Below, piece after piece: positions 9,390 through 60,435 of a stretch of DNA of 64,000 nt. Location of the stretch: positions 12,530,001-12,594,000 of the forward strand of contig NC_092562.1 of assembly GCF_037975245.1 (NCBI RefSeq), read 5' to 3'. The notes beneath the pieces are model-generated. The model was given only the letters and a program-made list of their open reading frames with translations. It had not been told where the DNA came from and ran no database searches. The position numbers and the translations under genes were made by a program. How positions within the stretch are numbered: the stretch's first letter is position 1; every line of letters begins with the position of its first letter. The stretch is from Apostichopus japonicus. Lineage: Eukaryota; Echinodermata; Holothuroidea; Aspidochirotida; Stichopodidae.

Positions 9390-9450
9390 ATGAAGATGAA
9401 AACCATTATTTTGCTGCTCATCTCGACTTTTGGAATTTGCAGAGGATCAG
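9390..9450 (+). CDS. Gene A exon 1: signal peptide
   Basis: The ATG at 9390 opens a short frame: two lysines, then a hydrophobic stretch I-I-L-L-L-I-S-T-F-G-I-C, then R-G-S. This is typical of a cleaved secretion signal. The exon ends after codon position 1 at a GTATAT donor, matching the phase of every downstream exon. The first exon of gene B encodes a closely similar peptide. A second in-frame ATG lies two codons on; the first was chosen because it gives a normal n-region. The following intron (9451-10988) shows nothing recognisable apart from a G-run near 10123. Confidence 0.8.
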
Positions 9451-59200: not shown

Positions 59201-60435
59201 GAACGCATTGCACTGAGCTGCGTTATGTATAGTCGAAGTACCTATATGTAATGGTGTTGTAGCTACATTATTGCGCACGTCTGGAAAACCAACCCAATGC
59301 TTGCATGTAGATTGATGTTTTTATTTTCTTTCACAAAAGTGAAAAAAACGATGATTAAAATAGTACAGTTATACCTTTGTAAGTGTAAGTTACTTGTTAC
59401 TGATTTGAGATCAGCCACTTAGGGAATTACAAAACCAGCTATGATTACAGTGTCACATACAGTGGTGTTCCAATGAGGGGGACAAGTGAATGTTGCCCCC
59501 CCCCCGCCCCAACTTTCGCCTACCTTCTCTGAAACCTTTTCTCCCTAACAGACATTGCACAATCTCCCGACTGAACGTTTTAAAAATCAACCTTACCCCA
59601 CCACCCTTCAAACTAACACGCGCCCAGACACGCGCCCACACATACGCACAAACCCGCATAGCCCTCGCCACTGATCACATAGGATGTTCACGGTGAACAC
59701 TGTTCGCAAATCTTGTACAACACTGTGCACACATGCGCATATCTTAAAGAAAGATCTTCGAACAGTTCCACTTAAAAGTTGAAATGTCCACTTCATTCGC
59801 TGCACGGAAGTATATTGTCATATATTAATGATTTCAATAGGCCTATGTCACTGCGGGTAAAAGTGAAATTTTCGTGCGATTGTTTACATGTGATGGTAAT
59901 ATATGCGGCAGCCACTTTAATTTTTCATTTTTAAAGTTCCATATACCAACACATAAAACGATACATTGCATGAAGCTCCTGGTTTTTGTTCCGTAACATT
60001 ACAAATCTTCCTCCTTATGCATCCTAAACCCTTTCGCTCCCTATAACCCGTTTTATTGTAGGAACAAGTTTCCGTTCCGATTTCCGATGTGGCGAGGGAT
60101 TTTTAGCACCGGATGGCGAGACTGCGAAATGTGACGGGCATGGTACCAATTATTGTTGTTCTTCTAGTGGCTGGTGCGGATCTGGCATTGAATATTGTGA
60201 CTGTGAAGGCTGCGTCGATTTCAGAGATACAAGTCAGCAAGGTAAGCAAGTTTTACTTTTTCTCTCTATACCTCAGTGTTTTCATATTGCTCATCGCAAA
60301 CACTAAAATTCATGACGTCAAATGAAAACAATAATTGTGACGTCATAGGCTATTTGTTCTAAGACTGCTGGTAAGTTTTGAATCTTACATACTTTCTTGA
60401 ATACACACGGTATACATATTTTGGAAGGTACTTGA
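44170..60435 (+). CDS. Gene B: secreted mosaic protein of hevein-like and SRCR modules
   Basis: Proposed coding exons: 44170-44224, 45432-45644, 45815-45991, 47102-47278, 47453-47794, (48231-48576 is frameshifted), 49071-49253, 49989-50330, 50537-50743, 51224-51559, 51884-52210, 52710-52880, 53565-53915, 55196-55543, 56979-57155, 57534-57707, 60062-60241 and a short end at 60428-60435. Without the broken exon this is 3768 bases, about 1255 residues plus stop. Order (S = SRCR, H = hevein-like): H-H-H-HH-(S broken)-H-S-H-S-S-H-S-S-H-H-H. All introns are phase 1. Compared with gene A, hevein-like modules dominate the N-terminal part. No membrane segment is seen. The C-terminal end is uncertain because the last module exon is decayed. 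Confidence 0.7.
45432..45644 (+). CDS. Gene B exon 2: hevein-like module 1
   Basis: Has a doubled lead-in, [13 protein letters not shown] then [10 protein letters not shown], as if the module start had been copied. It continues [35 protein letters not shown]. Eight cysteines. Acceptor GTCGCAACAG, donor GTAAGT. Confidence 0.88.
45815..45991 (+). CDS. Gene B exon 3: hevein-like module 2
   Basis: [54 protein letters not shown]. Consensus module with all eight cysteines. Acceptor TATAACTCAG, donor GTGAGA. There is no ATG near its start. The block 45432-46140 was duplicated as 47102-47920. Confidence 0.9.
46320..46790 (-). mobile_element. LINE (non-LTR retrotransposon) reverse transcriptase 3' fragment
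   Basis: On the minus strand, 46784-46527 reads [20 protein letters not shown] and then L-Q-K-R-A-I-R-R-I, the well-known thumb-region signature of LINE reverse transcriptases. After a stop, a further frame (46526-46326) begins H-K-T-R-T, like the H-x-Y-N-T-R region near the LINE C-terminus. No catalytic domain is present, so it is a dead 5'-truncated copy in gene B intron 3 (45992-47101). Confidence 0.85.
47102..47278 (+). CDS. Gene B exon 4: hevein-like module 3
   Basis: [53 protein letters not shown]. Eight cysteines. Acceptor CTGTATTTCAG, donor GTGAGT. The following intron start (GAGTCTAAAAATAAT) matches that after exon 2. Confidence 0.9.
47453..47794 (+). CDS. Gene B exon 5: fused exon with hevein-like modules 4 and 5
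   Basis: A single 342-base exon encodes two complete modules joined as [12 protein letters not shown]. The two halves repeat with a period of 165 bases (55 codons). Module 4 is consensus, with C-C-S-P-Y-N-W-C-G. Module 5 has C-C-S-T-Y-N-W-C-G and A-D-Y-C, giving Tyr at the hevein Y30 position. Sixteen cysteines in all. Acceptor TATAACTCAG, donor GTGAGA. Other hevein-like exons here carry one module each. Confidence 0.92.
47933..48076 (+). pseudogene. Relic hevein-like exon
   Basis: Reads [16 protein letters not shown], then [34 protein letters not shown] and a GTGAGA-like end. One Cys of the C-C pair is Phe, and the usual lead-in and acceptor are missing. A decayed copy of 45815-45991 and its intron. 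Confidence 0.88.
48231..48576 (+). pseudogene. Frameshifted SRCR exon (gene B)
   Basis: Good borders (GCATTGTAG and GTGAGT) and nearly complete SRCR coding. From 48231 it reads [39 protein letters not shown]. From about 48400 the domain continues only in another frame: [32 protein letters not shown]. The exon is 346 bases, two short of the 348 of its relatives, consistent with loss of two bases near 48400. Included, it would stop translation; skipped, frame is kept. Confidence 0.88.
48830..48945 (+). pseudogene. Relic SRCR 3' end
   Basis: Reads [15 protein letters not shown], then Q-L-D-T-Q-D-T-A-Q, resembling the [14 protein letters not shown] end of SRCR exons and the D-T-Q-S linker. The last Cys is lost and the 5' part is unrecognisable. 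It lies in the intron 48577-49070. Confidence 0.7.
49071..49253 (+). CDS. Gene B exon 6: hevein-like module 6
   Basis: [56 protein letters not shown]. Eight cysteines. Acceptor AAAACTACAG, donor GTAAGA. The following intron (49254-49988) shows nothing recognisable. Confidence 0.9.
49989..50330 (+). CDS. Gene B exon 7: SRCR domain
   Basis: [12 protein letters not shown] start, [62 protein letters not shown]. Six cysteines. The usual F-G-E-G is F-K-E-G. Acceptor TTTCTACAG, donor GTATGC. Confidence 0.94.
50537..50743 (+). CDS. Gene B exon 8: hevein-like module 7
   Basis: [15 protein letters not shown] linker, then [44 protein letters not shown]. Eight cysteines. Acceptor TTCTAATACAG, donor GTATGT. 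The following intron (50744-51223) shows nothing recognisable. Confidence 0.9.
51224..51559 (+). CDS. Gene B exon 9: SRCR domain
   Basis: [12 protein letters not shown] start, [61 protein letters not shown]. Six cysteines. It shares the W-L-G and G-P-I-W subtype with 55196-55543. Acceptor TTGTCCATTGTAG, donor GTATTT. Confidence 0.94.
51884..52210 (+). CDS. Gene B exon 10: SRCR domain
   Basis: [14 protein letters not shown] start, [65 protein letters not shown]. Six cysteines. C-R-x-L-G is C-G-M-L-G, and E-D-A-G is E-H-A-G. Acceptor TTCAATTATTCAG, donor GTAAGC. The following intron (52211-52709) shows nothing recognisable. Confidence 0.93.
52710..52880 (+). CDS. Gene B exon 11: hevein-like module 8
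   Basis: [46 protein letters not shown]. Eight cysteines. W-C-G is F-C-E. Acceptor TTTTTCACACACAG, donor GTAAAA. Confidence 0.88.
53565..53915 (+). CDS. Gene B exon 12: SRCR domain
   Basis: [13 protein letters not shown] start, [63 protein letters not shown]. Six cysteines. Acceptor TTTTTGTCCAG, donor GTAAAG. The preceding intron (52881-53564) holds a CAGTGGCATAAACAGG transposon-end-like stretch near 53337. The following intron (53916-55195) holds a C-run near 54528. Confidence 0.93.
55196..55543 (+). CDS. Gene B exon 13: SRCR domain
   Basis: [10 protein letters not shown] start, [66 protein letters not shown]. Six cysteines. Acceptor TTCCTTTTGCATTAG, donor GTATGC. The following intron (55544-56978) shows nothing recognisable. 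Confidence 0.94.
56979..57155 (+). CDS. Gene B exon 14: hevein-like module 9
   Basis: [51 protein letters not shown]. Eight cysteines. D-Y-R is D-Q-R. Acceptor TGTTATTACAG, donor GTAAGT. Confidence 0.9.
57534..57707 (+). CDS. Gene B exon 15: hevein-like module 10, closest to classical hevein
   Basis: [50 protein letters not shown]. The core fits the type 1 chitin-binding signature C-C-S-x2-G-x-C-G-x4-[FYW]-C exactly. Hevein positions S19, W23 and Y30 are kept, while W21 is Ser. Eight cysteines. Acceptor TGTTTGTTTCAAG, donor GTAAGA. Confidence 0.9.
57722..58300 (-). mobile_element. LINE 3' end fragment with short tandem-repeat tail
   Basis: On the minus strand, about 58270-57950 reads [27 protein letters not shown], then [15 protein letters not shown]. 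This is the familiar C-terminal region of non-LTR retrotransposon ORF2 proteins. Downstream on that strand is a GGGATGAAATAAACTTTTAC 3' UTR end and an (ACTT)n tail at 57728-57748. It is 5'-truncated and lies in gene B intron 15 (57708-60061). Confidence 0.85.
59460..59673. mobile_element. Probable second hAT-like MITE, 214 bp
   Basis: Begins CAGTGGTG and ends CGCCACTG, its inverted form with one mismatch. Flanked by GTCACATA (59452-59459) and ATCACATA (59674-59681), an 8-base direct repeat with one mismatch. The inside is C-rich with a C-run near 59497. It is older or more decayed than the copy at 37161. Confidence 0.65.
60062..60241 (+). CDS. Gene B exon 16: hevein-like module 11
   Basis: [55 protein letters not shown]. 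Like exon 15 it has the exact hevein-type core C-C-S-x2-G-x-C-G-x4-Y-C. Eight cysteines. Acceptor TTTTATTGTAG, donor GTAAGC. Confidence 0.89.

Follow-up and report, generated by a model that had tools for sequence, protein, structure and literature searches.

Adjacent genes of the echinoderm Apostichopus japonicus are predicted to encode long secreted mosaics of SRCR and hevein-type domains

Introduction

What kind of protein is encoded where exons for SRCR domains recur beside exons for a cysteine-rich, hevein-like module, and what might such a protein do? We addressed this question in a 64-kb window of Apostichopus japonicus (the whole stretch of DNA analyzed), which carries two genes, A and B, both on the + strand; a third paralogue, gene C, lies just downstream of gene B, outside the window. 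The mitochondrial DNA, by its genetic code and the order of its genes, points to an echinoderm and probably to a sea cucumber. From their sequences, these three echinoderm genes are predicted to encode long secreted mosaic proteins that combine SRCR and hevein-type domains.

Organization of the locus

Two modules make up the locus, a 52-residue, eight-cysteine module (H) and a six-cysteine SRCR domain (S). Between positions 10989 and 60241 of the + strand lie 22 full-length H modules, 12 full-length S modules and one frameshifted S module, plus broken copies. Scored with profiles derived from the modules of the window itself, full H modules reached 61-110 bits and full S modules 125-165 bits, and the same profiles gave at most 9.1 bits (H) and 5.5 bits (S) in the reversed window, which served as a control. 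Scans for Rfam families (gathering threshold) and tRNA genes found nothing in the window. One signal-peptide exon was found per gene. That of gene A (MKMKTIILLLISTFGICRGS, 9390-9450) has a phase-1 donor and matches the first exon of gene C at 77% identity across 66 bp, and that of gene B (44170-44224), also with a phase-1 donor, lies within a 129-column match to the same exon at 73.6% identity. A single gene spanning 9390 to 60 kb is ruled out because the second signal exon, at 44170, resembles that of gene C and gene A stops in frame at 33217; the two neighboring genes of an earlier sequence-only reading are thus upheld. That reading had also proposed soluble, secreted products, and the models agree in having a signal peptide and no other hydrophobic stretch of 19 residues in A, B or C, those of B and C being open at the 3' end, where a C-terminal anchor may exist.

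The model of gene A runs from ATG to stop over 1500 residues and 18 intact module exons, in the order S-H-H-S-S-H-H-S-H-S-H-H-H-S-H-H-S-H. The domains form runs, not the alternation that had been suggested. The first SRCR exon (10989-11303; HMM 155 bits) has 86.5% DNA identity to the first SRCR exon of gene C and is followed by an H exon with a Thr-rich linker (13882-14103), a second H exon (14565-14735) and two SRCR exons (15534-15878, Pfam SRCR 1.8e-30; 16317-16667). H exons at 18277-18474 and 19811-19993 precede an SRCR exon (20419-20736), an H exon (21640-21810) and an SRCR exon (22268-22597). Three H exons (23298-23495, 23969-24196 and 24765-24932) then lead to the SRCR exon at 25639-25986; the last two exons named belong to a block whose exons diverge faster than its introns. 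After a further H exon (27727-27930), this block recurs in duplicate as an H exon (29459-29626) and an SRCR exon (30336-30683), and the last exon (33042-33217) carries a divergent H module and then the in-frame stop. The locus also holds broken exons that the earlier description lacked; in gene A they are SRCR remnants at 26049-26150 (3' part only), 28542-28604 and 31370-31579.

Gene B, on the same strand, continues from its signal exon with three H exons (45432-45668, 45815-45991 and 47102-47278) and an exon holding two H modules in tandem (47453-47794; PDB match to PGRP3, 6.3e-11). A broken H exon, interrupted by two in-frame stops (47920-48069), and an SRCR exon with a frameshift, excluded from the model (48231-48576), come next. 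They are followed by an H exon (49071-49253), an SRCR exon (49989-50330), an H exon (50537-50743), two SRCR exons (51224-51559; 51884-52210, Pfam SRCR 7e-28), an H exon (52710-52880) and two more SRCR exons (53565-53915 and 55196-55543). The 3' part consists of an H exon (56979-57155), two H exons of a divergent subtype (57534-57707 and 60062-60241) and a last H module (60439-60581) that is broken, its frame being lost part-way; the gene C counterpart is intact. Gene C contains runs of near-identical H modules.

The H module

Among solved structures, the one closest to the H module is an animal domain. A profile of the 22 window modules matched amphioxus PGRP3 best, aligning with its chitin-binding domain over 51 residues and no gap (E 1.3e-12). 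AlphaFold2 best models of two H modules reached pLDDT 94.1 and 92.0, the latter for the divergent module at 57534-57707, and superposed on the amphioxus structure 4z8i with Z 9.4 (52 residues, 1.4 A) and Z 9.6 (52 residues, 1.3 A), respectively; the next structural matches were plant hevein lectins, with Z 4.9 and 5.2. In the stretches examined, partial matches being uncounted, all 55 full-length H modules keep eight cysteines in hevein order. By family and predicted fold the module is hevein-type, which bears out the earlier proposal of a hevein-like module.

Profile searches against Pfam Chitin_bind_1 (PF00187, CBM18), whose curated cut-off of 27.8 bits is the annotation threshold, gave mixed results. 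At E <= 10, 16 of the 22 window modules matched, and the tandem exon at 47374-47847 passed the cut-off with 35.6 bits; module-only scores, available for 15 single H modules, were 10.3-24.3 bits, all below it. The six window modules without a match (13950, 14576, 21651, 27768, 29470 and 33050) all belong to gene A. UPF0506 was a weak, sub-cut-off Pfam match in 4/22 modules and the top Pfam match for those at 19834 and 27768.

Residues corresponding to the binding site are kept to differing degrees among the 55 full-length modules. The first site is Ser or Thr in 53, the W55 site is aromatic in 50, the His62 site is His or aromatic in 49, and the W53 site is His or aromatic in 32. All three aromatic/His positions are retained in 2/11 H modules of gene A, 6/11 of gene B and 15/21 of gene C, and at these positions the gene A modules are degenerate relative to those of B and C. 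Counting the Ser site as well, most B and C modules retain two or three of the positions, whereas many gene A modules have lost them. The amphioxus PGRP3 domain is reported to bind chitin, and its W53A/W55A mutant not to (PMC4610682); the H module is probably chitin-binding. A tree built from 59 H modules gives good support to 10 inner branches out of 47; its columns are too few for most forks and the bootstrap is unsettled.

The SRCR module

Every SRCR domain lies within a single exon, as the sequence-only reading had it, and all 12 full window S modules match Pfam SRCR (PF00530) at E <= 0.001; the four for which scores are available reach 97-106 bits (cut-off 26.1). In vertebrates, group A SRCR domains are as a rule split over two exons. 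We therefore name these six-cysteine SRCR domains and do not class them as group A members. Six cysteines are present in all 29 full SRCR domains of the stretches examined, and 23 of the 25 domains of genes A-C have D, E, N or Q at the D1020 site, as that site is given in PMC7043408. The 'VEVLxxxxW' motif of DMBT1 occurs in 8/25 of these domains; it was given no weight because the stretch is described there as buried and without a binding role.

Proposed function

With moderate confidence, we propose from sequence and fold models that A, B and C are large secreted mosaic lectins that bind GlcNAc polymers and polyanions multivalently and thereby cross-link or coat microbes or chitin-bearing particles. 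Each H module would have a weak affinity for GlcNAc polymers (chitin, possibly peptidoglycan), but the 11 to 22 H modules of one chain would together give strong multivalent binding. The SRCR modules may use bound Ca or Mg to attach to polyanionic surfaces. A single chain could then cross-link, agglutinate or coat fungi, bacteria and chitin-bearing particles, much as DMBT1/SALSA does in vertebrate mucus, most likely in coelomic fluid or gut mucus. The retention of Ser and aromatic binding residues, mostly in B and C, and of most cation-site residues in the SRCR domains is consistent with this proposal. In A. japonicus coelomocytes an SRCR gene, not tied to genes A-C, is reported to rise 39-fold with LPS (PMC4264123).

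The same multivalency might instead serve cohesion and not microbe recognition, the proteins acting as structural or adhesive secretions that hold together the glycans of mucus, cuticle or tube-foot adhesive by cross-linking them. SRCR-repeat proteins are reported among the putative adhesive-secretion proteins of limpets (PMC7333891) and among genes upregulated in the pedal disc of the sea anemone (PMC6626399), and a cross-linking role would fit the stretches of almost identical H modules. However, the chitin-binding domains named there are of the invertebrate peritrophin type (type II), not hevein, and the solved structure most closely related to the H module is part of a peptidoglycan amidase; we regard an adhesive role as possible but unlikely.

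Relation to known systems

DMBT1 carries CUB and ZP domains, and no Pfam domain, these two included, was found in 10 chosen + strand ORFs of at least 80 aa, one of which is the broken H end, a set that includes neither short exons nor the C-terminal exons of B and C. The predicted products of genes A-C resemble DMBT1/SALSA/gp340, a large secreted multi-SRCR protein (PMC7043408), and they differ from it in the H modules that take the interspersed place; SRCR copy number is itself reported to vary in the DMBT1 gene (PMC4851238). The closest likeness of the H module is to the N-terminal hevein-like domain of amphioxus BbtPGRP3 (PDB 4z8i, 4zxm), with the same length, eight collinear cysteines, the same binding-site spacing and a predicted fold within 1.4 A. 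BbtPGRP3 has one such domain joined to a PGRP amidase, whereas here 11-22 copies are combined with SRCR domains. A PGRP-type fusion as in amphioxus was considered and appears unlikely: the one Amidase_2 match found by an exon-wise genome search, which may miss others, is on contig C23, with no H module found there. Plant hevein lectins (wheat germ agglutinin, Urtica agglutinin and pokeweed lectins) share the fold, the cysteine order and the arrangement of several domains in tandem, but the H module has a longer N-terminal arm and a conserved D-Y/F-R end. We know of no SRCR partner for plant hevein domains.

Hevein-type domains had been described as unusual in animals. They are uncommon but not foreign to them, since they are already reported from nematodes (PMC5297725) and amphioxus PGRPs (PMC4610682). 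The nematode genes likewise place a hevein domain in an animal, but they join one to three hevein domains per gene to a GH18 chitinase and, in two cases, also to LysM (PMC5297725). A protein combining SRCR and hevein domains was not found in the literature searched, eukaryotic protein databases lying outside that search, in keeping with the earlier statement that the architecture is not a named family. If the predictions hold, an echinoderm would be added to the animals for which hevein-type domains were found in print (nematodes and amphioxus), and an invertebrate would be shown to have combined many copies of a plant-lectin-type sugar-binding module with the SRCR scaffold used by the mucosal agglutinins of vertebrates. 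The locus would then offer a clear test of the way in which animals lacking antibodies achieve soluble recognition of high avidity.

Splicing, selection and decay

A phase-1 acceptor fits all 63 module exons of genes A-C and a phase-1 donor fits 62 of them, the exception being the stop-bearing last exon of gene A; the best donor is uniquely phase 1 in 56/62. An exon that starts and ends in phase 1 can be copied, left out or relocated and the reading frame stays intact. H and SRCR exons lie in the same genes, as had been proposed, with compatible splicing, and we infer that they are joined into one mRNA.

In seven of the nine duplicated blocks examined, introns have diverged more than exons, with the reverse in the other two. 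Divergence is 1.4% in exons and 4.3% in introns of the gene C array, and 6-9% and 12-20%, respectively, in four B-C blocks. Ratios of dN/dS are 0.08-0.61 in 11 of 13 pairs, including seven B-C pairs at 0.21-0.61, and indicate purifying selection in most of the pairs compared. The two remaining pairs, with dN/dS > 1, both come from the one duplicated block of gene A, where non-synonymous and intron divergence differ at p = 0.0015 (uncorrected, with 13 pairs examined), a hint of positive selection there and no stronger than that.

The ratios above 1 in the one block of gene A would also fit a partly dead locus, with C as the one working gene and decay under way in A, B or both. Broken SRCR and H exons occur in A and B, gene B being damaged by its frameshifted SRCR exon, its stop-bearing H exon and its broken last H module, and gene A keeps its binding sites weakly. 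Yet the ATG-to-stop model of gene A and its 18 intact module exons argue against decay, as do the low ratios of the seven B-C pairs, and phase-1 sites on either side of the broken exons could let splicing bypass them in frame. We therefore consider decay of A or B improbable. It is highly improbable that the SRCR exons and the H exons are spliced into separate, interleaved mRNAs, given their common strand, the same phase throughout, the single signal exon identified in each gene and the copying of an H exon, with the same phases, into a second SRCR gene elsewhere.

Recent transfer from prokaryotes or viruses was a further candidate that we rejected. Viral contigs yielded 3 stretches matching one peptide pattern and prokaryote genomes 18, with 0 confirmed in either; these scans covered viral contigs and prokaryote genomes and bear on recent transfer, not on older or plant/fungal transfer.

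Returning to genes A-C as secreted mosaic lectins, we tentatively raise the rather doubtful extension that the cluster serves recognition and changes rapidly. Its H and SRCR phase-1 cassettes would change through tandem expansion, copying into other SRCR genes, local positive selection and possibly alternative splicing, and individuals would differ in the number and kind of their modules. The gene A H exon at 18277-18474 would provide a concrete case of exon shuffling, with a 214-bp copy, 93.5% identical, in another SRCR gene (G000:C2:9.108 Mb).

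Architecture of the predicted genes

Profiles of the hevein-like (H) and SRCR (S) modules, both constructed out of the window's own modules, located 22 full-length H and 12 full-length SRCR modules plus one frameshifted SRCR in the window, all on the plus strand; on the reversed window the top scores were 9.1 bits (H) and 5.5 bits (S). When exons are joined at phase-1 sites, the models of all three genes stay open. The sequence-only reading had proposed that SRCR and hevein-like modules belong to the same tandem genes, and the predicted models agree with this: gene A would encode 1500 residues from ATG to stop with 11 H and 7 S modules, and gene B at least 1261 residues with 11 H and 5 S. 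Gene C, a third paralogue separated from gene B by a run of 5,000 N bases, would encode at least 2787 residues with 22 H and 13 S; its H exon repeat unit is about 1.9 kb, and two of its exons carry three H modules apiece. The signal exons of genes A (9390) and B (44170), both on the plus strand, match at the DNA level that of gene C (C2:12605745, beyond the window). Module counts and signal peptides, like the fold of the H module, are read from sequence and prediction. Broken exons were left out of the model counts, namely a frameshifted SRCR (48231-48576), an H module with a stop (47920-48069), a broken H (60439-60581) and SRCR remnants (26049, 28542 and 31370), all on the plus strand, together with partial H modules of gene C (79257, 80098 and 112901, numbered from the window start).

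Splicing and divergence of module exons

A phase-1 acceptor is present in all 63 module exons of genes A-C and a phase-1 donor in 62, the exception being the last exon of gene A, which reads into the stop. For 56 of 62 exons, phase 1 alone gives the top-scoring donor; five others show a tie, and in one the top donor is phase 0. Among nine duplicated blocks, selected from a larger set of duplications, exons have diverged less than introns in seven: the gene C array (10/694 exon sites vs 272/6343 intron sites), four B-C blocks (6.4-9.4% vs 11.5-19.7%) and two gene A blocks (8.5% vs 21.3%; 12.4% vs 12.9%). Two other gene A blocks show the reverse, the first at 15.2% in exons vs 12.0% in introns and the second (24629-26037 / 29323-30734) at about 20% vs 13.3%. 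Of 13 exon pairs compared, 11 have a dN/dS of 0.08-0.61. A set of 22 near-identical H modules gives a pooled ratio of 0.13. Because its exons have diverged beyond its introns, with dN/dS of 2.16 and 1.76 in its two pairs, the second block gives a hint of positive selection.

Hevein identity of the H module

The N-terminal chitin-binding domain of amphioxus PGRP3 (4z8i) is the top PDB match both of a tandem-exon query (E 6.3e-11) and of the 22-module profile (E 1.3e-12, gapless); the same profile reaches hevein proper at E 0.12. Comparison with the Pfam model Chitin_bind_1 gave the proposed hevein identity partial support: a two-module exon passes the cut-off of 27.8 bits, but 15 single modules fall below it at 10.3-24.3 bits, and 6 of the 22 H modules, every one in gene A, have no match to this model. 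Predicted structure agrees more fully with that proposal. AlphaFold2 gave a best-of-five pLDDT of 94.1 for module 47467 (remaining models 72-87) and 92.0 for divergent module 57542 (77-90), and the predicted folds superpose on 4z8i with VIA-align Z scores of 9.4 (52 residues, 1.4 Å) and 9.6 (52 residues, 1.3 Å), the rows that follow scoring 4.9 and 5.2. Foldseek likewise ranks 4z8i first (E 1.2e-3, query-based TM 0.85), and most of the matches below it are lectins and peptides of hevein type.

Putative ligand sites

According to the available part of PMC4610682, the PGRP3 domain binds chitin via W53 and W55, with S51 and H62 also in the site; these four residues correspond to H positions 31, 33, 35 and 42, a spacing identical to that of hevein S19, W21, W23 and Y30 (PMC5297725, available text). 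Among 55 modules matching the full length of the profile in the stretches read, position 31 is Ser in 52 and Thr in one, position 33 is His, Tyr, Phe or Trp in 32, position 35 is Trp, Tyr or Phe in 50, and position 42 is His, Tyr or Phe in 49. All three aromatic/His positions are kept in 2/11 modules of gene A, 6/11 of gene B and 15/21 of gene C, and on these residues binding looks feasible for the modules of genes B and C, far less so for those of gene A.

The S module is an SRCR domain with six cysteines in all 29 cases in the stretches read, and all 12 window domains match Pfam SRCR (E <= 0.001). A dual cation site is described for DMBT1 SRCR in the accessible portion of PMC7043408. Accepting D, E, N or Q, the 25 SRCR domains of genes A-C keep the D1019 site in 18, D1020 in 23 and E1086 in 21, and the D1058 and D1059 sites in 23 and 24, one domain being unplaceable for this last pair.

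In our reading, the products of genes A-C probably act as a soluble multivalent agglutinin. By analogy with PGRP3 and hevein, the H modules would supply many copies of weak sites for GlcNAc polymers, and cation-bridged polyanion sites on the SRCR modules, as in DMBT1, would supplement them; sugar binding, avidity and role are all extrapolated from these three proteins. The main rival is an adhesive or mucus-matrix function. SRCR joined with hevein was not found in the main-text passages of non-subscription literature searched; the one paper retrieved for SRCR together with chitin-binding and hevein domains does not link them in the text consulted. The available text of a sea-cucumber SRCR survey does not contain the word 'chitin' and considers partner domains too varied as a basis for classification (PMC13228809).

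H modules elsewhere in the genome

A one-H-module query found 71 places in the genome (E <= 10) and a divergent H query 67. Of the 71, 49 belong to the C2 cluster, where 24 fall inside the window and 25 downstream of it; one more lies at 9.108 Mb of the same contig, nine lie on contig C6 and six each on C12 and C1. DNA was read around 16 of the 22 extra-cluster places, in nine stretches. At 9.108 Mb (L020, C2:9104001-9112000), a lone H exon (3849-4004 of that stretch, minus strand) lies amid SRCR exons with shared strand and phase, and a 214-bp segment containing this exon shares 93.5% identity with gene A exon 18277-18474, making exon transfer between gene A and this second SRCR gene likely. 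On C1, three of the six H exons were read (L017, L018, L019), each single and close to EGF_CA exons, suggesting an EGF and hevein gene family. Two near-identical tandem H arrays, spaced at about 808 bp, occur on C6 (L012, 8.157 Mb; L013, 8.204 Mb), and no SRCR exon was found beside them in the 8-9 kb read.

Other sequence observations

An intron of gene A (13021-13628) contains tandem repeat DNA in steps of about 112 bp. Another repeat, about 100-130 bp long, is dispersed on both strands and is perhaps a transposable-element remnant; it occurs at 815-913, 1999-2130 and 37344-37459, and the interval from gene B to gene C has three copies. The window corresponds to C2:12530001-12594000 of the assembly, which spans 671.6 Mb in 35 contigs; a published A. 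japonicus assembly is given as 805 Mb in the available text of PMC5638244.

Contig C35 (16,099 bp) is the mitochondrial genome of the assembly, and its cox1, read by eye, fits code 9, in which AAA encodes Asn and AGA/AGG encode Ser. With tRNAs placed by ARAGORN, protein genes assigned by eye and rRNA places assumed, the order is cox1-R-nad4L-cox2-K-atp8-atp6-cox3-S(-)-nad3-nad4-H-S-nad5-nad6(-)-cob-F-12S-E-T-gap, then P-Q-N-L-A-W-C-V-M-D-Y-G-L-nad1-I-nad2-16S, which we take to be the sea urchin and sea cucumber mitochondrial order. Further cox1 pieces (five matches) lie at 14745-31219 of the 31 kb contig C29, which may represent a nuclear or an additional copy of the mitochondrial DNA.
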